Below are positions 34,105 through 46,702 of a stretch of 64,000 bases of DNA, one piece after another. The DNA comes from Marinitoga piezophila KA3 (lineage in GTDB: Bacteria > Thermotogota > Thermotogae > Petrotogales > Petrotogaceae). The translations under genes were made by a program, and so were the position numbers. The notes beneath the pieces are model-generated. The model was not told where the DNA came from and did no database searches. It saw nothing but the letters and a program-made list of their open reading frames with translations. The stretch lies in contig NC_016751.1 of the NCBI RefSeq assembly GCF_000255135.1, forward strand, positions 1,860,001 to 1,924,000, given 5' to 3'. How positions within the stretch are numbered: the first letter of the stretch is position 1; every line of letters starts with the position of its first letter.

Positions 34105-34210
34105 AATTAACTTTATTTAAATATTAATTTCATCTTTTTGTATATAATATATACGGTATAATTTTCAAAAAATAATAAAATAAAATAACATAAACAGGAG
34201 GCTGATGAAA

Positions 34211-34405
34211 ATGGCAAGAGTATGTGAAGTGTGTGGAAAAAGACCAACAGCTGGAAACTATGTTGCTCATTCAAAGGTAACCACAAGAAGATGGTGGAAA
34301 CCAAATATTCAAAAGGTTAAAGTTGTTTTAGAAGATGGAACAATTAAGAGAATGAATGTATGTACAAGTTGTTTAAAGGCTGGTAAAGTAAAAAGAGCAA
34401 TATAA
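34211..34405 (+). CDS. rpmB: Large ribosomal subunit protein bL28
   Basis: A 64-residue ribosomal protein. It begins MARVCEVCGKRPTAGNYVAHS and has a second CTSC pair, giving four zinc-binding cysteines as in the C+ paralogue. I take ATG 34211 rather than 34205 because it gives the family N-terminus and nine bases to GGAGG. Two TATAAT-like elements lie at about 34145-34163. Own terminator downstream. Confidence 0.96.
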   Translation: MARVCEVCGKRPTAGNYVAHSKVTTRRWWKPNIQKVKVVLEDGTIKRMNVCTSCLKAGKVKRAI

Positions 34406-34416
34406 CAAAAATAATA

Positions 34417-34440
34417 ATGCCCCTTTTGGGGCATTTTTTT
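34417..34440 (+). terminator. Terminator after rpmB
   Basis: ATGCCCC and GGGGCAT with a TTTT loop, followed by seven T. Confidence 0.92.
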
Positions 34441-34574: not shown

Positions 34575-35246
34575 ATGACTTACAACGAAAATGTATTTAT
34601 CGAAAAAGTTAATCTAAGAAAATTACTGTATCCTGGGGATTTAATAGATGTTGAATTTCCCGAACAACATATTGTAGCAAATAGCAGAATACTTGATATG
34701 AGTTTTCAGAAAAGGATCGCAGTAATACTTCCACCTTATCATAAAAATCGAAAGATAGAAACATATAGCAGGGAAAAAATAATAATTAGATTTTATGATT
34801 TTTCAGCGAGTGTTGTATTTAAATCTCATATTTTAAAAAATAGTATGGAAGGTATTATTATCTATCTTCCACGTATTGCGTATAGAATTCAAAAAAGAAT
34901 GTTTTTTAGAGTTTCCATAATAAGAGAGGGGATATTACTTGATGAAGAAAATAATAAAAAAATTAGATTTGAGACAAGGGATTTTAGTGCTGGTGGAATG
35001 CAAATTATAACAAAAAGTACGCTGGAAAAAGATAAAAGATATATATTAAAAAACCTGACAATAACAGATGATTTAATACTAGAGGATATTGAAACGATGG
35101 TTGTTAGAAGTTTAGGGCAGAATTTATATAAAGAAAATATATATGGAATGAAATTTTTAAATGTTAATTATAAACTGGAGAAGAAAATAGTAAGATTTGC
35201 TAATTTATATTCGATAAAAGCAAGACATGGTGCTGTGGGGGAATAA
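34575..35246 (+). CDS. PilZ-domain protein (YcgR-like), probable c-di-GMP receptor
   Basis: A 223-residue cytosolic protein with an N-terminal YcgR-like beta domain (about 1-100) and a C-terminal PilZ barrel. The c-di-GMP-binding motifs are present: RIQKRMFFRV (Q-x-R-x-x-x-R) near residue 105-115 and DFSAGGM (D-x-S-x-x-G) further on. YcgR relatives brake flagella or control polysaccharide export. It is the first gene of the Pel cluster, three bases before pelD, so c-di-GMP control of Pel synthesis is the natural inference; flagellar braking is the alternative. TATAAT at 34550-34555 may be the operon -10. Confidence 0.85.
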   Translation: MTYNENVFIEKVNLRKLLYPGDLIDVEFPEQHIVANSRILDMSFQKRIAVILPPYHKNRKIETYSREKIIIRFYDFSASVVFKSHILKNSMEGIIIYLPRIAYRIQKRMFFRVSIIREGILLDEENNKKIRFETRDFSAGGMQIITKSTLEKDKRYILKNLTITDDLILEDIETMVVRSLGQNLYKENIYGMKFLNVNYKLEKKIVRFANLYSIKARHGAVGE

Positions 35247-35248
35247 TA

Positions 35249-36463
35249 ATGGCGAAGAAGAAAGGTTATTATGGTTATATAGAATTATTTATTATATATA
35301 CATTAATATTAATCGTTGACATATATGGAAAATATTTTGGATATGCGTTTATTGATCCAAATCCGTATTTTATTTTTTCTTTGTTTATAGCTATAAGATA
35401 TGGTATTAACCTTGCGCTGGTTTCAGGTTTTTTAAGTACAGCATATCTCTTTTTTTCATTATATATTCAGGCAAAGGAAAATTTTACGGGGCTTATAGTT
35501 AGCTGGCAAATTTTAAAAATACCGCTTTTTACATTTTCATTGAGTTTTATAATAGGTTTTTTTAGAGATATGTATATACAGGAAATTGAAAATAGAGATG
35601 AAAGAATAAAGGTTTTAAATGAAAAGGTAAAAGATCTTGAAAATGAAATTAGAAAATATAAAAACGTTACTGTAGATCTTGAGAAAAAGCTTGTTCTTGA
35701 AAGAAAGGGAGTTTCACTATTAGTTGAAAGATTAAAGGAAATAGATTATGAAAGTGCAGAAGATATATTTAACGAATCCATAGACCTTATCTTTGATTTT
35801 ATTGAAGCTACGACAGTTTCAATTTACACGTTAAGTAAAAATAATTTTTTAAGAATGAGAGTTAGAAAAGGGCCACAGTATCTTCCAAATTCATTTGATA
35901 TTGAAAAATCTGTCGTTATCTCAATGGCAAAAGAATTTGGTGCTGCAAATGTAAATGTTCTTTATCTTACAGAAATGGAGTATAACTTTGAGTTTGAACC
36001 GGCAATGGCTGTATCTATTTCAGCTGGAAAGAATATTCTCGGTTTTGTTATTATTGAACTTATTGATCCAGAAAAGGTTAATAAAAATACAGAAACATAT
36101 TTAAAGATATTATCAGACTGGCTTAGCACGTTGTTAATGGCATCTAAAGAATTGGCAGAATCAGATGAGGAAATGTTTATAAAACCATATGAGGAGTTTG
36201 AAATTACCCTTAAATACATAGAAGAGAGGAGAAAACGTTTTGAAATTCCTTATTCTATAATTTATTTTACAGTTACTCAAAATGTTGAAATAGAAAAATA
36301 TAGAAAGATAATTAGAGATACAGACTTTGTTTTTTATGATCCAGAAGATAAAAAAGGCGCTATTATTTTAACATCATGTGGTAAAACAGGATTAAAAAGA
36401 GTTCTCGAAAATATTGAAAAAATAAAAAGCATAAAGGTTTTGGAGGCTTATTCAAAAGAATGA
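35249..36463 (+). CDS. pelD: PelD-like membrane c-di-GMP receptor
   Basis: A 404-residue protein: four membrane segments (about 10-110), a coiled-coil linker (115-160), a GAF domain (165-295, with ATTVSIYTLSKNN and GKNILGFVIIEL) and a short C-terminal degenerate GGDEF-like part. That part keeps RDTD at residues 356-359, which matches the RxxD inhibitory-site motif that binds c-di-GMP in PelD of Pseudomonas, while the GGDEF active site is absent. This domain order is that of PelD. In known systems it switches on the PelF/PelG synthase. Overlaps pelE by four bases. Confidence 0.82.
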   Translation: MAKKKGYYGYIELFIIYTLILIVDIYGKYFGYAFIDPNPYFIFSLFIAIRYGINLALVSGFLSTAYLFFSLYIQAKENFTGLIVSWQILKIPLFTFSLSFIIGFFRDMYIQEIENRDERIKVLNEKVKDLENEIRKYKNVTVDLEKKLVLERKGVSLLVERLKEIDYESAEDIFNESIDLIFDFIEATTVSIYTLSKNNFLRMRVRKGPQYLPNSFDIEKSVVISMAKEFGAANVNVLYLTEMEYNFEFEPAMAVSISAGKNILGFVIIELIDPEKVNKNTETYLKILSDWLSTLLMASKELAESDEEMFIKPYEEFEITLKYIEERRKRFEIPYSIIYFTVTQNVEIEKYRKIIRDTDFVFYDPEDKKGAIILTSCGKTGLKRVLENIEKIKSIKVLEAYSKE

Positions 36464-37398
36464 AAATGCGAAAAGAAATTATAATACTTATCCTTTCTAT
36501 ATTATCTGGAACTTTAGGGTTAATTTTTATAATAAAAAATAACAAATATGGCTATTTATTTATAGCCATATATTTTCTTTTAGCAATAATTATTTCGTAT
36601 TCATATAAAAAAAGATATTCTGATATTTTTAAAAAACTTCCTTTTTTTGTTCTTTTCTTTCCGTTTTTTCCTTTTATTCAATATTTGCAGAATATTAAAA
36701 TAGAATCCAGATATAAACCAGTTGAAATATCAGAAAAAAAAGAAGAGGAAAACGAAAGGGTAAATTTTTCTTCGGTGGATCTTGCACCGTTTATGATAGT
36801 TTTAAAATACGGTGATCCTGAACAAAGAAAATTTGTTGTAAGATTGGTGTATGATGCAATAAAAAATGAAGCTATAGATTTTTCTACAGGGATTCATTTA
36901 TTAAATGAAGCAATAAAAATAGATGAACATCCTGATGTAGTGTTATATGCATCTGATGCAATTACAAATCTTGAGAATTTTCTTATTGAGAAGATATCAT
37001 ATTATTATGAAAATTTAAATACGCTGGAGGATTATATAAATTTTGGTAAATTTTCATATTACTATGCAAAATCTGGATTTTTAGCAGGAGAACATAAACA
37101 GGAAATCTTATGGCAAAGTGCTTTAATACTCAGAACAGCAGTTCATGTGTTTCCAGAAAGTCCGGAACTAATATTATATCTTTTAAAAACGCTGGAATTA
37201 TTAGAGGAATATAATGAACTGGAAGAGGTACTTGAAGATAAAATAAAAAACTTCAAAGCACAAAAAATAATGGAATATGCTATATTTTATTATATAAAAC
37301 GAAAAAAGCCAAAGAATGTTCAAAGATTGGTGTCTGATTATATATTATTGGGTTTTAAACCTGAAAGTGAAGCATTAAAATTCTTATTGGGAGGATAA
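36460..37398 (+). CDS. pelE: PelE-like membrane TPR protein
   Basis: A 312-residue protein with three hydrophobic segments in the first 85 residues, then a cytosolic all-helical region of TPR-like pairs (from about 105: LAPFMIVLKYGDPEQRKFVVRLVYDAI to the end). PelE of Pseudomonas has two membrane segments and TPR repeats and forms part of the inner-membrane synthase complex with PelD, PelF and PelG. The call rests on architecture and on the position between pelD and pelF; sequence identity could not be measured. Confidence 0.7.
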   Translation: MKMRKEIIILILSILSGTLGLIFIIKNNKYGYLFIAIYFLLAIIISYSYKKRYSDIFKKLPFFVLFFPFFPFIQYLQNIKIESRYKPVEISEKKEEENERVNFSSVDLAPFMIVLKYGDPEQRKFVVRLVYDAIKNEAIDFSTGIHLLNEAIKIDEHPDVVLYASDAITNLENFLIEKISYYYENLNTLEDYINFGKFSYYYAKSGFLAGEHKQEILWQSALILRTAVHVFPESPELILYLLKTLELLEEYNELEEVLEDKIKNFKAQKIMEYAIFYYIKRKKPKNVQRLVSDYILLGFKPESEALKFLLGG

Positions 37399-37404
37399 AT
37401 TAAA

Positions 37405-37908
37405 ATGAAAGAAAATCTTAAAAAGATATTTAGCGCATATAATCTTTTATTTGCAGTAGTTCTGGGATTGATATTTCTTGTAATAATAATAAATAAAAAT
37501 GCCAATACATCTTTAAGTTCCAGGCAAATAAATGATTTTCCGTGGAATAAAAGAAGTGTGTATATAAAACAACTTGAATTATTATCAAAATTAAAACATA
37601 TATCTTTAAATGATGAAAATGTATTAACTTATATTAATCAGCTTATATTGATATCAAAAAACCTTGAGGATAATAAAACTCTTGAATATGCACATGATCT
37701 AAAAATAAAATATCTTTTGAGCCATATAAAACAATTATTGGAAGATTCAAAAAATTATGAGTATATAGATGATTTATCCTTTAATGAAAAGGTTTCTCTG
37801 TATCTTTTAACAAAGGATGAAAGGTTAATGAATTACATAATAGAAAAATCAAATGAATTTGAAAAAATAAAATTTTCTAAAATTCTCGAAGTATTAACAG
37901 AACATTGA
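37405..37908 (+). CDS. Small single-pass membrane protein of the Pel cluster
   Basis: A 167-residue protein I do not recognise. One membrane segment at about 12-28 (YNLLFAVVLGLIFLVIIIN), then a mostly helical soluble part of about 135 residues. With one anchor near the N-terminus and a positively charged start, the soluble part probably faces outward. It lies 6 bases after pelE and 14 before pelF, so it is co-transcribed and may be an extra Pel subunit or a split-off part of PelE. No known Pel component matches this description in my memory. Confidence 0.6.
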   Translation: MKENLKKIFSAYNLLFAVVLGLIFLVIIINKNANTSLSSRQINDFPWNKRSVYIKQLELLSKLKHISLNDENVLTYINQLILISKNLEDNKTLEYAHDLKIKYLLSHIKQLLEDSKNYEYIDDLSFNEKVSLYLLTKDERLMNYIIEKSNEFEKIKFSKILEVLTEH

Positions 37909-37922
37909 ATTGAGGGGAAAAT

Positions 37923-39329
37923 ATGAAAGTAGGAATAATATTTGAAGGAACATATCCATATGTTACAGGTGGGGTATCCAGCTGGGGAAATACTTTAATG
38001 AAATCAATGAAAGACGTTGATTTTTGTGTAATACAAATTGGGGATGTTCCTAAATTACGATATCCAAAATATAAATTTCCAGAAAATGTTGTAGACTATT
38101 TTGAATACTTTTTATTTGCCAAATATGATTTTTCCAAAAAGAAAAAAATTCCTGATGATTTTTTAAATAAATTGGGAAAGATTATTATTTATCCCTTTGA
38201 CGAAAGGGTTATGGCTCAGAAATTGTATAATTTGTTTAAGGATTATTCCGATTATGATTTTACTTCTATCTTAAAGACAAAATATTATTGGGAAACAATG
38301 CTAAACTTCTATAAATCATATATTCCATATGAAAACTTTACAAATTATTACTGGACATTGCAATCAATGTTGCTTCCTTTTTTAAACTCCATGACAGTAG
38401 ATCTTCCAAAATGCGATGTTTATCATACAATTACTACTGGTTATGCTGGAATTAGTGCAATTATGAATGGTTTGAAATACAATATTCCTGTGATTTTGAC
38501 AGAACATGGTATATATCACAGGGAAAGGCAATTAGAAGTATTAAAGGCAAATTGGATAAAGGATGAATATAGAACAGCATGGATAAAATTATTTAATACT
38601 ATTAGTTCTCTGGTATATAAAGGATCAAAACAGATAACAACATTATTTAGCAAAAATCAAATGTTTGAAAAGGAATTATGTGAAGATGAATCCAAAATGC
38701 AGGTAATCCCAAATGGCATAGATTACGATAGATTTTCAAAATTAAAATATAGAGAAGAAAAAGATCCGTTTATTGTAGGACTTGTTGGGAGAGTAGTTGA
38801 AATAAAAGATATAAAAACGGCGATAAAAGCAGCCAAAATGGTCAAGGAAAAAATAAAAAATTTTAAATTGTATATAATAGGTCCAACAGATGAAGAGAAA
38901 GAATACTATGAAGAATGTAAACAGATGATTAGATTGTTTAAATTGGAAGATACTATAGAGTTTACAGGTAAAGTAAATGTTCTTGATTATTATCCTAAAT
39001 TAAATGTATTATTATTATCAAGCGTTAGTGAAGGACAGCCGCTTGTAATTTTAGAGGCATTTGCAGCTGGAATTCCAGTTGTTACAACAGATGTTGGTGC
39101 ATGTTCAGAAATGATATATGGATCTAAAGAAGATATAATAGGTGATGCAGGAGTTGTTGTAAAACCTAAGGATTTTGTAGGATTAGCTGAAGGAATTATG
39201 AAACTATATGAAGATGATGAGTTTAGATTAAATGCTTCAAAAATTGCAAGAGAACGGGTTAAAAGACGATATAGACTTGATCAAATGATAAAGAACTATA
39301 AAAAATTATACATATCGGCGGTGAAATAA
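37923..39329 (+). CDS. pelF: PelF-like cytosolic glycosyltransferase (GT4 family)
   Basis: A 468-residue GT-B enzyme that builds the Pel polymer from a nucleotide sugar. N-terminal IIFEGTYPYVTGGVSSW is the PelF-type GT4 acceptor loop; TEHGIYHRERQLEV follows, then IPNGIDYDRF, and the donor site SSVSEGQPLVILEAFAAGIPVVTTDVGACSEMI with the E-x7-E pair. No membrane segment is seen, matching PelF, which is held at the membrane by PelD/E/G. Overlaps pelG by one base. Confidence 0.9.
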   Translation: MKVGIIFEGTYPYVTGGVSSWGNTLMKSMKDVDFCVIQIGDVPKLRYPKYKFPENVVDYFEYFLFAKYDFSKKKKIPDDFLNKLGKIIIYPFDERVMAQKLYNLFKDYSDYDFTSILKTKYYWETMLNFYKSYIPYENFTNYYWTLQSMLLPFLNSMTVDLPKCDVYHTITTGYAGISAIMNGLKYNIPVILTEHGIYHRERQLEVLKANWIKDEYRTAWIKLFNTISSLVYKGSKQITTLFSKNQMFEKELCEDESKMQVIPNGIDYDRFSKLKYREEKDPFIVGLVGRVVEIKDIKTAIKAAKMVKEKIKNFKLYIIGPTDEEKEYYEECKQMIRLFKLEDTIEFTGKVNVLDYYPKLNVLLLSSVSEGQPLVILEAFAAGIPVVTTDVGACSEMIYGSKEDIIGDAGVVVKPKDFVGLAEGIMKLYEDDEFRLNASKIARERVKRRYRLDQMIKNYKKLYISAVK

Positions 39330-40741
39330 TGGCTGGTGTAGGTTTTAGACTTACAAAGATGTTTCATAAAGGAGGAGTATCAACAGATTTACTTGCAATA
39401 GCCTATTCCGTTGTGGTATCTTCCGGACCATGGATAATCACAACAACATCTTTATGGATAATACTCAATATAATGAATATTAACAGCATGTACTTTAATA
39501 TAGGAATAGTATATTCTTTTGTGTTTTCCATAATAATATCCGGTCTTGTTGTTATGTTTGAATCACGAAGATTATCGGATTTAATATATTTAAAAGAATA
39601 TAAAAAAATATTGCCTGAAGTATTTGGAATTATCCTTTATGCATCTCTTTTTACGATAATATTATTGGCTATATTTTTTCTTATTAATCCTCATGAATGG
39701 TGGTTTATTTTTTCTTTCTCTTATTTAACTATTTCTTTATTAATATTATGGATAATTTCCATAGCTTCTATTTCAACAGATGCTGTAAACTGGTATATTC
39801 TTGCATATATAGTTATGGGATTTTCATCTATTATATTATCTAAAATTCTTGGAGATGAAAATAATCAAATAGGGTATTTAATGGGATTTGCGTTTGGCGT
39901 TAATATAGGTAGTTTTATTCATTATTTAATTATTATATTTCATTTTGGAACAAATATAGAAATTTCTGTTGAATGGATACATGATTTAAGAAAATACTGG
40001 CAGAATATATTTATTGGAGTTACATATTATCTGGCATTATGGGCAGATGATTTTATTACATGGACATCTCCTATTTATGGTGAAGAACCATTAAAAGGAT
40101 TTCATTTTTCATATATATATGATTATCCTATGTTTCTTGCATATTTAACGATAATTCCAACTGCTACTATGTTTATTTTAATTTTAGAGACAAGATTTTA
40201 TAAAAAATACAAATTATTCTATGATTCGTTGATAAATGGTTATAATTATTCAGAAATAGAATTAAGAAAAAAAGAAATGTTTAAGGAATTAAAATTGAAC
40301 ATATCCCTTACAATAAAAGTTCAGGTTGTAATTACATCCATTCTATTAATGTTTAATGAATTAAACTTATTACCATTTGTAAGTGAAATATCCAAACCTA
40401 TTTTAAGGCTTGGATTCATAGGTGCAATGATGAATTCTTTTTATTTAATGATAATGCTATTATTATTATATTTTGATTTTAGAGATGATGCCCTGAAATT
40501 AAATCTATTTACTCTATTTTCAAATATAATATTAAGTTTTATATTTGTTGATAAAATTGGATATTATTCTCTTGGAGCAGGATATTCTATAGCTTTTACT
40601 CTTGGAACTTTTATAGGATATAAAATATTAATAAAAAAAGTTGATGATATAATAAGAATAGAATATTTTAGACAGGAAATAGGAGTTGAAGATGGTTTTT
40701 ATATGCATTTTAAAGATATAAAACATTTAATGGAGGAATAA
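39329..40741 (+). CDS. pelG: PelG-like polysaccharide transporter
   Basis: A 470-residue integral membrane protein with about twelve predicted segments, in the MVF/MATE-type flippase fold. The N-terminus MAGVGFRLTKMFHKGGVSTDLLAIAYSVVVSSGPWIITT is the typical PelG opening. The soluble loop after the middle (TRFYKKYKLFYDSLINGYNYSEIE) also fits. PelG carries the growing polymer across the inner membrane. Coupled to pelF by overlap and followed by the deacetylase two bases after its stop. Confidence 0.92.
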   Translation: MAGVGFRLTKMFHKGGVSTDLLAIAYSVVVSSGPWIITTTSLWIILNIMNINSMYFNIGIVYSFVFSIIISGLVVMFESRRLSDLIYLKEYKKILPEVFGIILYASLFTIILLAIFFLINPHEWWFIFSFSYLTISLLILWIISIASISTDAVNWYILAYIVMGFSSIILSKILGDENNQIGYLMGFAFGVNIGSFIHYLIIIFHFGTNIEISVEWIHDLRKYWQNIFIGVTYYLALWADDFITWTSPIYGEEPLKGFHFSYIYDYPMFLAYLTIIPTATMFILILETRFYKKYKLFYDSLINGYNYSEIELRKKEMFKELKLNISLTIKVQVVITSILLMFNELNLLPFVSEISKPILRLGFIGAMMNSFYLMIMLLLLYFDFRDDALKLNLFTLFSNIILSFIFVDKIGYYSLGAGYSIAFTLGTFIGYKILIKKVDDIIRIEYFRQEIGVEDGFYMHFKDIKHLMEE

Positions 40742-40742
40742 T

Positions 40743-43079
40743 ATGAAAAAGAAAATTTTATTATTAATATTAATTATTATTGCGGTTTTATCCTTTTCTC
40801 AAAAGGAACTTTTATTGCTATATAAACAATCAGAAAACTATGGTGAAATGATGTTTAAATATCATATTATTCCTATTCTGGAAAAAAATAATATTAGATA
40901 TGAATTAAAGAATGTTGAAGAGATGAATTATTATAAGATAACAAATGAAAAGTATTTTGGAGTAATTACATGGTATTATTCTTCTGAGATGGCTAAACCC
41001 GAATTATATTTAAGGCAACTGGCAACATTTGTTGAAGATGGAGGAATATACTTCTTTTTTAACAATATAGGTGCAAGTGCAGATATTTCGGAAATGAATA
41101 ATTTATTAAATAAAATTGGTGTTCAGTATAAATATGGATATAGAGAATTAGAAGATTATACAATTGAATGTATTTCAGACTATTTTTTAAAAAAACCGGA
41201 TAGTGAATATAAAGTTCCTGTTGAAAAGTATATTACCTTTGACAATCATATGGAAAATATATTAACCTATAAAATTGACAATGAAGAGTATCCAATGATA
41301 TTTCTGACAGATAATGGTGGTGCCGCAATATTCAATAGTTTTGTTGATAAAAATGGAAATCTCATAATCAATATTAATAAACTTATACATAGATTTATAA
41401 ATCATGAAGTTGGAACATTGAATAAATTTTTGATAGTCAATACAAAATACGACAATCAAAAATACCTGGATTCTCAATATGAAATAAAAAAGATATTATT
41501 ATATGCAAAACAAAATTTTGATGTGATAAGCGTAGAACAATTTTATAAACTCTCTTTCTTTGACCTTATTCCATATAAATATATAATATGGAATACAGAT
41601 GCAAAATATGTTGAAACAAGAACAATAAAGAAATTTATAAATAGTGGGGGAACATTTATATATTCCACACAATTATTTAATACGCCATGGAGCAGCTATG
41701 TAAAAGAAGATAATATCAATATAAACAAAATTTCATTTACAAAAGACTTATTCCCTTTAACTAATACAGCAACAGAATCATATATAAATATGTATTTTGA
41801 ATTAAATTATCATATAGACTTACCGGGAAATATAAAACCTCTGGCATTTTTCTGTGGAGATGGAAAAAGTGTTCCGGTGATATGGTATCAAAAAGAAGGA
41901 AAGGGATATAGAAGTTATATAAATCCAGATGTATATTTAAAGAATATAAGAGGATTGATTTTTCAGTCAATAATGTCAATGCAAAAAAATAGCATAAGTG
42001 GATTTTTGAATTCATTTATGTTCTATATAGATGATTTTCCATTGCCATCATATAATGTTGTTCGTGCAAAGATTAATGGGAAAGACATCACAGATGATGA
42101 ATATTACTATACAATCTGGTGGCCGTCTATAAAGAAATTTTCCAAAGAATTCAATATTAAATATACCTTTGTTACACCTCTAAGTTATAATGGTTCAAGC
42201 AATCCACCATTTGAATTTTCGGAATTTTTAATGAGTAATACCAATTCTCCGTTAAAAGCACTTAGAGAAATAGATAAATCAGAGTTTGAATTAGGATTAC
42301 ATGGTTATAATCATAATTCATTAACAAAAGACAGATGGCCAAATCCAAACAATATATTACTCAGTTTAAGAGCAGCAAAAACATTTATAGAAAAAATATT
42401 GGGACATCCAATAGAATTATCAAGTTATGTTGCTCCTAATAACATAATAGATGAGTTTGGGGCAAATCAGCTTTTAAAAGCAATTCCGGAAATAAAAACA
42501 ATAGGTACATCATATGAAGCAAAAGATGAATTTTCTGAGTATAAGATTATAAATAATTTTACACTTGTAATTCCGAGGTCTACATATGGATATTATCCTT
42601 TAAAAAGAATATATATAGCTACAATAAATACACTTGCAAATTTTGGTGCATTTCAGCATTTTATTCATCCTGATGATTTATTTGATAAAGGTCGAAATCC
42701 GGAAAATAAAACATGGATGGAGATGTACAGCAGTTTAAGGACATTCTATTTAACTATTAAGAAAAAATTCCCATGGTTAAGAAATCATACAGCTTCAGAA
42801 GCATATCAAATATATTTTGATTATTTAACACAAAATGTAAAATATAAATGGAATGAAAATAATTTAACAGTTGTAATTCCTGATTCTTCCATATTTCCAA
42901 AGTATTTTTATGTAAAATCCCAGAGTGGCATTGATGATATTATAAACGGAAAAATAATTGACTATTATCCAGAATCAAAATTATATGTTATTGAAATGGA
43001 TGATAACATTATGAATATAAAATTCAGTGGAGATGATAGTTATTATGAAGGGCAGAATAAGAAAGGAAATAATCGCTAA
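40743..43079 (+). CDS. Exported PelA-type polysaccharide deacetylase (DUF2194-like)
   Basis: A 778-residue protein with a signal peptide (KKKILLLILIIIAVLSFS). The N-terminal half (about 20-390) has Rossmann/glutamine-amidotransferase-like features (TWYYSSEMAKPELYLRQLATFVEDGGIYFFFNN). The C-terminal half is a carbohydrate esterase 4-like barrel: FMFYIDDFPLPSY with the catalytic aspartate pair and ELGLHGYNHNSL with the metal histidines, then RSTYGYYP. It corresponds to the deacetylase part of PelA, which removes acetyl groups from Pel and makes the polymer cationic. The hydrolase part of PelA is missing here and is probably the GH114 gene at 44370. Confidence 0.78.
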   Translation: MKKKILLLILIIIAVLSFSQKELLLLYKQSENYGEMMFKYHIIPILEKNNIRYELKNVEEMNYYKITNEKYFGVITWYYSSEMAKPELYLRQLATFVEDGGIYFFFNNIGASADISEMNNLLNKIGVQYKYGYRELEDYTIECISDYFLKKPDSEYKVPVEKYITFDNHMENILTYKIDNEEYPMIFLTDNGGAAIFNSFVDKNGNLIININKLIHRFINHEVGTLNKFLIVNTKYDNQKYLDSQYEIKKILLYAKQNFDVISVEQFYKLSFFDLIPYKYIIWNTDAKYVETRTIKKFINSGGTFIYSTQLFNTPWSSYVKEDNININKISFTKDLFPLTNTATESYINMYFELNYHIDLPGNIKPLAFFCGDGKSVPVIWYQKEGKGYRSYINPDVYLKNIRGLIFQSIMSMQKNSISGFLNSFMFYIDDFPLPSYNVVRAKINGKDITDDEYYYTIWWPSIKKFSKEFNIKYTFVTPLSYNGSSNPPFEFSEFLMSNTNSPLKALREIDKSEFELGLHGYNHNSLTKDRWPNPNNILLSLRAAKTFIEKILGHPIELSSYVAPNNIIDEFGANQLLKAIPEIKTIGTSYEAKDEFSEYKIINNFTLVIPRSTYGYYPLKRIYIATINTLANFGAFQHFIHPDDLFDKGRNPENKTWMEMYSSLRTFYLTIKKKFPWLRNHTASEAYQIYFDYLTQNVKYKWNENNLTVVIPDSSIFPKYFYVKSQSGIDDIINGKIIDYYPESKLYVIEMDDNIMNIKFSGDDSYYEGQNKKGNNR

Positions 43080-43584
43080 AAGGAAAAATCTTTCTAAATT
43101 AGAATATGAATCAAATAATAAAATAATCATTGAAAAAATATATAATTATTTAAAATCCAAAAATTTCAAAACAATAGCGATTTATTATCCATACAGGAAA
43201 GAGGTAAACGTATTAAATTTAATGGAATTATTCAAAGATAAGATATTCCTTTTTCCCAAAGTAATAAGCGATGAAAAAATGATTTTTATTCCTGTTAATG
43301 ATATTAATGAACTGAAAAAAGGAAAATTTGGAATAATGGAACCAGAAGGAACGGAATATACTGAATATATAGATATTTATATTGTTCCAGGAGTGGCATT
43401 TGACCTTGATTTATATAGATTAGGATATGGTGGAGGGTTTTTTGACAGATATTTTTCAGTACACAAAAAAACTCAGTTAATAGGAGTTGGATTTGACTTC
43501 CAGATATTAGAAAAATTGCCTGTTGATGACCATGATATACAGATGAATCTTGTGATAACTGAAAAACGAATTTTAGGAGGATAA
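43045..43584 (+). CDS. fthC: 5-formyltetrahydrofolate cyclo-ligase
   Basis: A 179-residue cytosolic enzyme that recycles 5-formyl-THF to methenyl-THF using ATP. Motifs: KGRIRKEIIAKRKNLS at the start, YYPYRKEVN, FGIMEPEGTEY and the ATP-binding GYGGGFFDRY. Several starts are possible (GTG 43027, ATG 43033, ATG 43045); I prefer 43045, which gives the family N-terminus, though the ribosome site GGAG is rather distant. It overlaps the deacetylase gene by 35 bases. A housekeeping enzyme inside the Pel operon is an odd neighbour. Confidence 0.9.
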   Translation: MKGRIRKEIIAKRKNLSKLEYESNNKIIIEKIYNYLKSKNFKTIAIYYPYRKEVNVLNLMELFKDKIFLFPKVISDEKMIFIPVNDINELKKGKFGIMEPEGTEYTEYIDIYIVPGVAFDLDLYRLGYGGGFFDRYFSVHKKTQLIGVGFDFQILEKLPVDDHDIQMNLVITEKRILGG

Positions 43585-43588
43585 AGAT

Positions 43589-44377
43589 ATGAAAATAGGG
43601 CTTGTGCAATTTAAACCGGAATTATTTCAGGTAAAAGATAATATAGAAAGAGCGATAAAGTTAATAGAAAATAAAGAAGCAGACTTGTTTGTATTTCCGG
43701 AACTGACATTTACAGGTTATACATTTAATACACATACAGAAGTTGAATGGGTTGCTGAAGATAAAAATGGTTATTCTATCACAACATTTAAGAAAATAGC
43801 TAAGGAAAAAAATACCAATATAGTTTTTGGATTTGTTGAAAAAGACGAGGGTAAATTGTATAATTCTTCTGTTTTAATAAAAAGTACAGGAGAAACAAGA
43901 ATTTATAGAAAAACACATTTATTCTATGAAGAGAAGGTGTTTTTTGAAAAAGGGGATACAGGGTTTTGGGTAGAGGAAGTTAATGGAGTAAAAGTAGGAC
44001 TTGCAATATGTTTTGATTGGTTTTATCCAGAATCATTTAGAACGCTTGCATTAAAAGGTGCACAGGTTATAGCGCATAGTGCCAATCTTGTTATGCCATA
44101 TTGTCAGGAAGCAAATAAATTCCGCTCTCTTGAAAATCATGTGTTTATAGTAACCTCAAACAGATGGGGCGAAGAGATAAATGCATTAAATACAAATAAT
44201 TTTACTGGTATGAGTCAGATAACCAATCCAAAAGGAGAAGTAATAATTAGATTTCCGGAAAAAGGAGATATGGTGAAAGCTATTGAAATTAATCCTGAAG
44301 AAGCTAATAACAAGCAATTAAATAAATTGAATAATATCTTCGAAGACAGGAGGCCGGAATTTTATTTCAATGGATAG
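43589..44377 (+). CDS. Nitrilase-superfamily carbon-nitrogen hydrolase
   Basis: A 262-residue cytosolic enzyme with the E-K-C triad: FPELTFTGY, RKTHLFYEE and GLAICFDWFYPE. The family cleaves amides or nitriles, for example omega-amidase (Nit2) or N-carbamoylputrescine amidase. The triad surroundings look like a general amidase; the substrate cannot be told. It lies four bases after fthC and overlaps the GH114 gene by eight bases, so all three are co-translated. Confidence 0.9.
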   Translation: MKIGLVQFKPELFQVKDNIERAIKLIENKEADLFVFPELTFTGYTFNTHTEVEWVAEDKNGYSITTFKKIAKEKNTNIVFGFVEKDEGKLYNSSVLIKSTGETRIYRKTHLFYEEKVFFEKGDTGFWVEEVNGVKVGLAICFDWFYPESFRTLALKGAQVIAHSANLVMPYCQEANKFRSLENHVFIVTSNRWGEEINALNTNNFTGMSQITNPKGEVIIRFPEKGDMVKAIEINPEEANNKQLNKLNNIFEDRRPEFYFNG

Positions 44378-45287
44378 AATATTTATAGTACTTTTAATTT
44401 CGGTACTCACGATTCCTTTTTTAATGCCGCTATTTATTGAAAAACAGGAAGTTCCTGTTATCTATCAGCTTGGTAATGTTGATATAAATGAAATTACATT
44501 ATATTACAAACCAGAATATATAATAATTGATTATTCACATGATGGTAGTGAAAAAAACAAATTTTCCAGATATGAAATACGAAAGTTACAAACAAATGGA
44601 AGTACAGTTTTGTCTTATCTCAGCGTAGGAGAAGCAGAAGACTACAGGTTTTATTGGGAAAAATGGTGGAATAATAGTCCTCCAGATTTTATAGGTGAAG
44701 AGAATTCAAAGTGGCCTGGTAATTATAAGGTAAAATACTGGCATTGGGAATGGAAGGAAATTATGCACCAATATATAGATAAAATAATAGATCAGGGATT
44801 TGATGGAGTTTATATAGATCTTGTTGATTCATATTTATATTGGGCTGACCATGATTATGATATATATGCAACAGCAGAAGAGATGATAAACCTTATAGCA
44901 GATTTATCAGAATATGCAAAGAGTAAAAGGAAAAATTTTAAAATATTTGTTCAAAATGCGGAATCCATAATTGATTATGATTATAACGGAAAATATATGG
45001 AATCTATAGATGGATTGGGAATTGAGAGTTTGTTTTATATAAAAGGGAAAAAACGGAAAGAAAAACAAATAGATTATAGATTAAATTATATAACGAAGTT
45101 TAAAGAGCATAATAAAACAATTATAGTGATAGATTATATTTATAATGAAAAAGAGTCAGATATAGAGAAAGTAAAAGATTTTATTTCCTTATGTGAAGAA
45201 TATGGATTTTTAGCCTATCCTGCAACAAAAGACCAAAAGTTATATACTATATCGCCAGGAATAAAATATTTTAATCAAAATAAATAG
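44370..45287 (+). CDS. GH114-like exported glycoside hydrolase (PelA hydrolase part / TM1410-like)
   Basis: A 305-residue protein anchored or exported by a hydrophobic N-terminus (about 4-20, IFIVLLISVLTIPFLMPLFI). The rest is a TIM barrel of the endo-alpha-1,4-polygalactosaminidase type: YIIIDYSHDGS, VLSYLSVGEAEDYRFYW, GFDGVYIDLVDSY and FVQNAES are the strand-end motifs bearing acidic residues. This is the fold of the PelA hydrolase domain, which trims Pel polymer. It ends the Pel gene run and so would complete a PelA divided over two genes. Confidence 0.82.
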   Translation: MDRIFIVLLISVLTIPFLMPLFIEKQEVPVIYQLGNVDINEITLYYKPEYIIIDYSHDGSEKNKFSRYEIRKLQTNGSTVLSYLSVGEAEDYRFYWEKWWNNSPPDFIGEENSKWPGNYKVKYWHWEWKEIMHQYIDKIIDQGFDGVYIDLVDSYLYWADHDYDIYATAEEMINLIADLSEYAKSKRKNFKIFVQNAESIIDYDYNGKYMESIDGLGIESLFYIKGKKRKEKQIDYRLNYITKFKEHNKTIIVIDYIYNEKESDIEKVKDFISLCEEYGFLAYPATKDQKLYTISPGIKYFNQNK

Positions 45288-45310
45288 AGAAGGAATATTC
45301 CTTCTCTATT
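45283..45310. terminator. Bidirectional terminator at the end of the Pel cluster
   Basis: AATAGAGAAGGAA pairs with TTCCTTCTCTATT, with T residues after it on both strands, between convergent genes. Confidence 0.88.
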
Positions 45311-45311
45311 T

Positions 45312-45787: not shown

Positions 45788-46534
45788 TTATCCAACAATA
45801 AAACTTACTATTGCTGCGAGAGCAGTATAATAACCAAAATATTTAAGCTTTCCATTTATAACGGTTTTCTTTAAAATAAACAATCCTATAACGCCAAAAA
45901 TAAAGGTAAATATTCCTGAATATATTACAGGTGCTGTAAATGTAACGTCATTTATTTCAAGTAATCCAGCACCAAAGGTTACAGGAAGGCTCATTAAAAA
46001 GGAATATTTTAAAGCTGCTTCTTTTTTTGTATTTAAAAGCAAAGCACCGAATAAGGTAAATCCACTTCTTGAAATACCAGGAAAAATAGCAGCTGCTTGA
46101 AATAAACCAATTATAATAGCATCTATATATGAAATATCCATTAATTCCTTTTTCCCATCAAATCTATCGGATAGAATCATTGCAACAGATGTAAATAAAA
46201 AGAATAATCCAACCAGTCTAAGCGAAGAAAATGCCTCAGAAATCTGATCTTCAAATAAAATACCAATTATTGCAGCTGGCACTGAAGAAACAATAATTTT
46301 CAAAGCAAGATTCCAGGCACTTTTATCCATTGTAAACATACCTTTTAAAATAAACCACACTTCTTTATAAACAAACAATAAAACTGCGAAAAATGTCATT
46401 AAATGTAAAAAAGCGAAAAAAGAAACGTCGGGATTAAAGTTAATGAGTTTTGAAAATAAAGCAAGATGTCCTGAACTTGAAACTGGCAAAAACTCCGTTA
46501 ATCCCTGAATTATACCCAAAATAATTTCCTGCAC
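45788..46534 (-). CDS. uppP: Undecaprenyl-diphosphate phosphatase
   Basis: A 248-residue inner-membrane enzyme that converts undecaprenyl diphosphate to the monophosphate lipid carrier. Motifs: GIIQGLTEFLPVSSSGHLAL near the N-terminus (glutamate and serine-rich active site) and FPGISRSGFTL further on. I take GTG at 46534 as start, since GAGGTGGAGG directly precedes it and the family begins there; a longer frame exists but adds an unrelated 23 residues. The gene is next to the popT-like gene across the repeat region. Confidence 0.95.
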   Translation of the reverse strand: MQEIILGIIQGLTEFLPVSSSGHLALFSKLINFNPDVSFFAFLHLMTFFAVLLFVYKEVWFILKGMFTMDKSAWNLALKIIVSSVPAAIIGILFEDQISEAFSSLRLVGLFFLFTSVAMILSDRFDGKKELMDISYIDAIIIGLFQAAAIFPGISRSGFTLFGALLLNTKKEAALKYSFLMSLPVTFGAGLLEINDVTFTAPVIYSGIFTFIFGVIGLFILKKTVINGKLKYFGYYTALAAIVSFIVG

Positions 46535-46702
46535 ATCCTCCACCTCTCTTTTTATATAATTGTTATTTTTGTTGATAATTGAGAAAAATAAAAACTCCCT
46601 CAAACAAGCTGGTTGCTAATCCTCGAAAATTTTTTTTGAAAGTAGAAAAATAATATTCTCTCAGACGGCAAGAATTTCTAATCCTTGAAAAATTTTTGTG
46701 TT

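Follow-up and report, generated by a model that had tools for sequence, protein, structure and literature searches.

The closest described counterparts of the gene cluster studied here are the pelABCDEFG operon of Pseudomonas aeruginosa and the "Gram-positive" pelDEADAFG operon of Bacillus cereus ATCC 10987 (PMC7112168; PMC13254593). Bundalovic-Torma 2020 (PMC7112194) had already recorded Pel operons in Thermotogae; the main text of that study deals with their representation only and mentions neither Marinitoga nor the missing PelB and PelC of a diderm phylum, nor the orfX gene and the PilZ relocation discussed below. Literature searches on Pel in Negativicutes and on exopolysaccharide in Marinitoga returned nothing to the point. 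Here, we analyzed a 64-kb stretch of the genome of Marinitoga piezophila KA3 (hereafter the window), located on the 2,231,407-base contig of a two-contig genome of 2,244,793 bases, and confirm that it contains a real and tight pel operon of ten genes. We consider it probable that the operon directs the synthesis of a PelADA-type exopolysaccharide under control of cyclic di-GMP (c-di-GMP) in this diderm thermophile.

Gene content and type of the Pel cluster

PelF matches NCBIfam NF038011 at 374.7 bits (cut-off 100) and is 83% identical to other Marinitoga PelF, and PelG matches PF16933 at 411.7 bits (cut-off 29). By these curated cut-offs both are true family members and do not fall in unrelated GT4 or flippase clades, an outcome for which the original prediction of a Pel cluster in this stretch had left room. 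In a quick maximum likelihood tree of PelF (midpoint-rooted, with support from the Shimodaira-Hasegawa-like approximate likelihood ratio test, SH-aLRT, only), Thermotogota form one clade (100), which groups with Bacillota, Negativicutes and Fusobacteriota (SH-aLRT 98), apart from Pseudomonadota, KSB1 and some others.

The deacetylase aligns with PDB entry 9zau (E 7e-38), the PelADA of B. cereus and founder of families CE26 and CBM114 (PMC13254593). All eight residues reported for that enzyme (D262, D263, H350, H354, P405, R458, H488 and D491; PMC13254593) are kept in this alignment as D430, D431, H520, H524, P565, R612, H642 and D645, and both the Asp-His-His metal site and the catalytic pair are present. 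The best Foldseek match of its structural model is Pseudomonas PelA (E 8e-12), which is of the same fold class. An hhalign match to tandem CBM114 domains (prob 34, E 4e-4) lies in a low-confidence part of the model and is suggestive only. Based on the PelADA match and the PelF tree, we therefore file the cluster, with high confidence, with the pelDEADAFG type and not with pelABCDEFG.

Like the B. cereus operon, the Marinitoga operon has a core of PelD, a PelE-like protein, PelADA, PelF and PelG and lacks PelB and PelC, its PelD combines a GAF domain with a degenerate GGDEF domain carrying RxxD, and the two deacetylases are members of one family and share every catalytic residue. Unlike in B. 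cereus, the host is diderm, pelADA lies 3' of pelG, a PilZ gene heads the operon, and orfX, a GH191 gene and two housekeeping genes are included; the deacetylase carries an additional domain at its N-terminus, and N388 of PelD is aligned with the third c-di-GMP-binding arginine. Homologous PelD, PelF and PelG, a PelE-like protein and both a deacetylase and a hydrolase function are shared with P. aeruginosa. However, the Marinitoga operon has no PelB, PelC or fused PelA, and encodes a CE26-like deacetylase and a GH191 hydrolase in separate genes, in contrast to the CE21 and GH166 activities of P. aeruginosa.

The PelE-like protein fits PelE in position and topology. It is matched weakly by sequence to proteobacterial PelE (hhalign prob 71, E 4e-5) and at prob 94 to a Cetobacterium gene. 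In a Marinitoga relative pelE is duplicated in tandem (L042:5496-7386), the copies being 58% and 42% identical to PelE of the window. The following gene, orfX, had been passed over in the original gene list. Its relatives in the fetched Thermotogota loci, eight of them recovered by profile and one more recognized from its position, always stand between pelE and pelF, and the sole profile match among 80 further pel loci was another Marinitoga; orfX relatives were seen only in Thermotogota and only in this slot. The idea that orfX is a remnant of PelB, PelC or PelE found no support in profile comparison (prob <1).

All ten genes are collinear on the plus strand, with junctions ranging from a 35-base overlap to a 14-base gap (Table 1). 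The succession of PilZ, PelD, the PelE-like gene, PelF and PelG and the closing hairpin, a probable terminator, are as originally predicted. Separate deacetylase and hydrolase genes do follow pelG, as had also been claimed, with a cyclo-ligase and a nitrilase-like gene in between; their designations as "PelA-type" and "GH114" give way to DUF2194/PelADA/CE26 and the TM1410 group/GH191, respectively, the Pfam GH114 model also matching the hydrolase. The cluster is not supported as an oddity of one organism, given the occurrence of PelG in 42 of 103 Thermotogota, T. maritima among them, and the Thermotogae operons published in 2020 (PMC7112194).

Table 1 Features of the Pel operon in the window and barrel-like genes in other pel loci (coordinates with an L number refer to the respective locus)
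Feature	Coordinates	Strand	Details
Terminator of rpmB-like gene (34208-34405)	34416-34435	+	8-bp stem, T run; separates pel operon from rpmB
PilZ protein, YcgR type (PilZNR + PilZ)	34575-35246	+	RMFFR and DFSAGG motifs
PelD	35249-36463	+	Membrane helices, coiled coil, GAF, degenerate GGDEF, RxxD 356-359
PelE-like protein	36460-37398	+	Position, hhalign, hydropathy: two N-terminal membrane helices, soluble C-terminal region
orfX, membrane protein of 167 aa with one span, outside known families	37405-37908	+	Hydropathy, profile searches
PelF, GT4 glycosyltransferase (polymerase)	37923-39329	+	NF038011; E370 and E378 invariant
PelG polymer transporter	39329-40741	+	PF16933
PelADA-type de-N-acetylase (DUF2194; CE26/CBM114)	40743-43079	+	N-terminal signal/anchor, extra N-terminal domain of ~200 aa
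5-Formyltetrahydrofolate cyclo-ligase, housekeeping passenger	43045-43584	+	Overlaps deacetylase gene; ATG 43045 chosen by eye
Nitrilase-family hydrolase, passenger	43589-44377	+	
GH191 (TM1410-type) glycoside hydrolase	44370-45287	+	N-terminal hydrophobic segment; D150 and E219 in conserved motifs
13-bp hairpin, probable terminator, common to convergent gene	45282-45311	.	
Negativicutes post-pelG genes	L092:12857-15115, L095:12894-15029, L118:12211-14352, L114:12909-15110		
Fusobacteriota pel cluster genes	L060:12001-15022, L110:14138-15121, L124:3614-4525		

On the minus strand 3' of the operon lie a gene resembling by sequence that for undecaprenyl-diphosphate phosphatase (45788-46603) and an undecaprenyl phosphate translocase-like gene (PF04018; 47153-47947). 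At least one other Marinitoga pel operon (L040:14795-18100) has a PfkB kinase gene 5' of GH191 and a sucrose-synthase-like glycosyltransferase gene 3' of it. Genes of similar length occupy these positions in two more Marinitoga; the window operon has neither. A relative of T. maritima (G091) carries two pel clusters in tandem (L056:5650-18149).

PelD and PilZ as candidate c-di-GMP receptors

PelD aligns with proteobacterial PelD (hhalign prob 95, E 3e-8), and the RDTD motif at residues 356-359, spotted in the original prediction, falls on the proteobacterial RxxD. R356 and D359 are invariant in all 23 PelD sequences, where they are two of eight invariant columns in total, and RxxD is aligned in 45 of 52 wider relatives. 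Structure prediction, which had been suggested as a check, gave an AlphaFold2 model with a predicted local distance difference test (pLDDT) score of 90; in a Foldseek search against 350,542 PDB chains, ranks 1-7 were all P. aeruginosa PelD. The TM-scores of these matches are low across both domains together, and a VIA-align comparison (Z 15.6) mainly covered the GAF domain. The Pfam model PelD_GGDEF matched neither in the genome nor in the controls and was not used as evidence; it is also reported to miss B. cereus PelD (Whitfield 2020, PMC7112168). We hold control by c-di-GMP through PelD to be probable.

The absence of GGDEF genes from the window had seemed to stand out in an operon with two c-di-GMP readers. 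Two receptor candidates, PelD and PilZ, are indeed supported, and the oddity dissolves because there are 14 GGDEF matches in the genome, one of which (C2:1855623-1856087) lies some 4 kb outside the left end of the window. No EAL domain was found in the genome, where HD-GYP was not searched for, and breakdown of c-di-GMP must therefore use another family, such as HD-GYP. No Rfam match to a c-di-GMP riboswitch occurs within the window.

The PilZ protein matches PF07238 and PF12945 and keeps the RxxxR and DxSxxG binding motifs. As the original prediction had it, its gene precedes the pel genes; it is the first of the operon, two bases from pelD. What had been missed is that it is the sole PilZ match in the genome and that the usual flagellar position is vacant. 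Each of the seven Marinitoga genomes (7/7) has one PilZ match, situated beside pelG by coordinates. In three other genomes (G048, G052 and G080) and in T. maritima, the PilZ gene is part of the flagellar operon, with flhG on one side and a cheC-like gene on the other (flagellar gene names were assigned from sequence starts and gene order). The flagellar locus of M. piezophila, the only genome in which this slot was inspected, follows the gene order of G052 and still has the 222-aa gene that comes before PilZ there, but the PilZ slot is empty. The 222-aa protein encoded after flhG (L166:6656-7321; C2:735655-736320) lacks a Pfam match; its homolog in G052, encoded ahead of PilZ, shares 28% identity with it. 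Between the operon PilZ and the flagellar PilZ of G048, identity is 33%. We read the operon PilZ as a flagellar YcgR-type receptor that was relocated to the pel operon; alternatively, the flagellar PilZ may have been lost and another gained independently beside pel.

The chances that this PilZ acts as a flagellar brake appear to us about even. A motility inhibitor inside an exopolysaccharide operon is known from B. subtilis, whose eps operon encodes the flagellar clutch EpsE (PMC3000366). The Marinitoga operon would resemble it in carrying a candidate gene of this kind. Unlike EpsE, which is a bifunctional glycosyltransferase, the candidate is, as judged from its sequence, a YcgR-type PilZ receptor for c-di-GMP.

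PilZ domains also act in alginate and cellulose synthases. The protein could accordingly serve Pel synthesis instead of the flagella, as a second c-di-GMP input to PelF/PelG, an idea in keeping with its place at the operon head, two bases from pelD, with the single PilZ beside pel throughout the genus and with its divergence from flagellar PilZ. We nevertheless regard it as rather unlikely, as the protein has the full YcgR architecture with PilZNR and is homologous to the flagellar-operon gene, and as no PilZ was detected with a Thermotogota-based profile in the fetched flanks of 83 other pel loci.

Possible passage through the toga

The PelB barrel (PF24604) was found neither in the M. piezophila genome nor in 25 other PelG-bearing Thermotogota, while three of three proteobacterial controls were positive. 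PelC was likewise absent from these genomes as judged by a three-sequence profile, which recovered all three controls; the latter are the profile's own source sequences and gauge detection, not reach. The predicted lack of PelB and PelC thus extends, at the sensitivity used, from the operon to the genome. Porins are present in the toga, which is a true outer membrane (PMC3387000), and the export question raised by the original prediction is therefore real, though it holds for the whole phylum and not for this organism alone.

Other diderms with this synthase have genes of their own next to pelG. In Negativicutes, 9 of 11 pel loci contain a related gene of ~700-1200 aa, directly 3' of pelG in eight (one gene is split and one lies within a long merged frame). 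The encoded protein has a signal-like start, a coiled coil of ~300 aa and a C-terminal half that resembles a barrel and finishes with an aromatic residue (SF), which makes this family a candidate PelB replacement. In Fusobacteriota (Cetobacterium, Propionigenium), a barrel-like protein of 308-328 aa is encoded 3' of pelG. The Fusobacteriota clusters also show YNREGYD-type repeats with a lipoprotein-like start, which are joined to PelG in Cetobacterium but stand apart from it in L124. Neither the Negativicutes nor the Fusobacteriota protein gave a convincing Pfam match. By analogy, the Marinitoga polymer might leave through an unlinked, lineage-specific outer-membrane barrel. The recurrence of barrel-like genes in these two groups and the real porins of the toga favor this route (PMC3387000), which we propose tentatively and rate somewhat below even: the barrel nature of the model proteins was read from sequence and not from structure prediction, a crude scan revealed no counterpart in the fetched Thermotogota pel clusters, and searches with the Negativicutes protein in Thermotogota yielded at best marginal coiled-coil matches.

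A general exporter of the OPX type (Wza-like) is encoded at C2:663110-665998. This protein of 963 aa has PF02563 (Poly_export) and SLBB domains and a signal-like start, and most of the phylum has an OPX protein (83 of 103 Thermotogota genomes). However, they are equally present in PelG-free Thermotogota (e.g., G046-G051) and unlinked to pel, and the Pel-bearing G012 has no match. OPX thus occurs regardless of PelG and has no specific tie to Pel; a role as Pel-specific exporter was rejected on this ground, and exit of the polymer by OPX as a general exporter seems improbable. Taking the barrel and OPX routes together, we nonetheless lean towards export across the outer membrane.

If the polymer stayed in the periplasm, for instance in the amorphous layer of the toga, no outer-membrane exporter would be needed. 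The missing PelB, PelC and linked barrel would agree with this, as would the description of the toga as an outer membrane plus amorphous layer around a large polar periplasm (PMC5487896). Yet PelG matches are missing from 61 of 103 Thermotogota, even though a toga is described for the order at large, and Gram-positives that secrete their polymer share this synthase, PelADA and GH191; we consider periplasmic retention quite improbable. Its phylum-wide form, in which Thermotogota would deposit their Pel-like polymer between cell body and toga and not as an exopolysaccharide, is in our view more doubtful still. If true, it would explain why PelB, PelC and a linked outer-membrane gene are missing from the Thermotogota examined, unlike in other diderms with this synthase.

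The polymer and its proposed biosynthesis

The GH191 hydrolase matches PDB entry 9eux (E 7e-60) and TIGR01370 at 263 bits (cut-off 181), and its D150 and E219 fit the catalytic Asp and Glu of the TM1410-type barrel. The GH191 of genome G090 is letter for letter TM1410, which identifies this genome as T. maritima, and there TM1410 adjoins genes for PelADA, PelG, PelD and PelE (L055:10198-13320). The substrate of TM1410 was left unsettled in PMC12054363, the main text of which does not contain the word "operon"; because TM1410 adjoins pel genes, its native substrate is probably the Pel-like polymer of T. maritima itself.

Several points weigh against a c-di-GMP-controlled Pel operon. In PelD, N388 occupies the position of the third c-di-GMP ligand (R395 in B. 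cereus, whose PelD itself lies outside the alignment), and 38 of 52 wider relatives have arginine there. R384, one turn away, might replace this arginine, and N388 weakens but does not remove the claim of c-di-GMP binding. The identity of PelE is weakly supported by sequence, and a diverged PelB could have been missed by the barrel model and the three-sequence PelC profile. Finally, the GH191 of T. maritima was inactive on fungal galactosaminogalactan (PMC12054363). This last result, the separate branch of Thermotogota PelF and the extra N-terminal domain of the deacetylase would also suit a cluster that uses Pel-like machinery to make a polymer other than one of N-acetylgalactosamine and galactosamine. 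We think such a product unlikely, as all site residues of the N-acetylgalactosamine de-N-acetylase are kept and another GH191 does cleave Pel (PMC12054363).

We propose the following model for a Pel-like product. Binding of c-di-GMP to the RxxD site of PelD would switch synthesis on, PelF would polymerize the sugar, and PelG, with PelD and PelE, would carry the polymer across the inner membrane. On the outer face of this membrane, PelADA would partly de-N-acetylate the chain, which GH191 might trim or release. The toga would be crossed by some unlinked outer-membrane route, needed because neither PelB nor PelC was found. PilZ would be co-expressed with Pel, its most likely task being to brake the flagella during slime production.

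The Marinitoga operon makes it testable how a polymer of the Pel type crosses the outer membrane of a diderm that has neither PelB nor PelC. That Negativicutes and Fusobacteriota each have barrel-like post-pelG genes of their own suggests that the outer-membrane exit has been replaced several times. If the sole PilZ gene did leave the flagellar operon for the first position of the pel operon, as we read it, it would provide a clean evolutionary case linking the control of motility to slime production.

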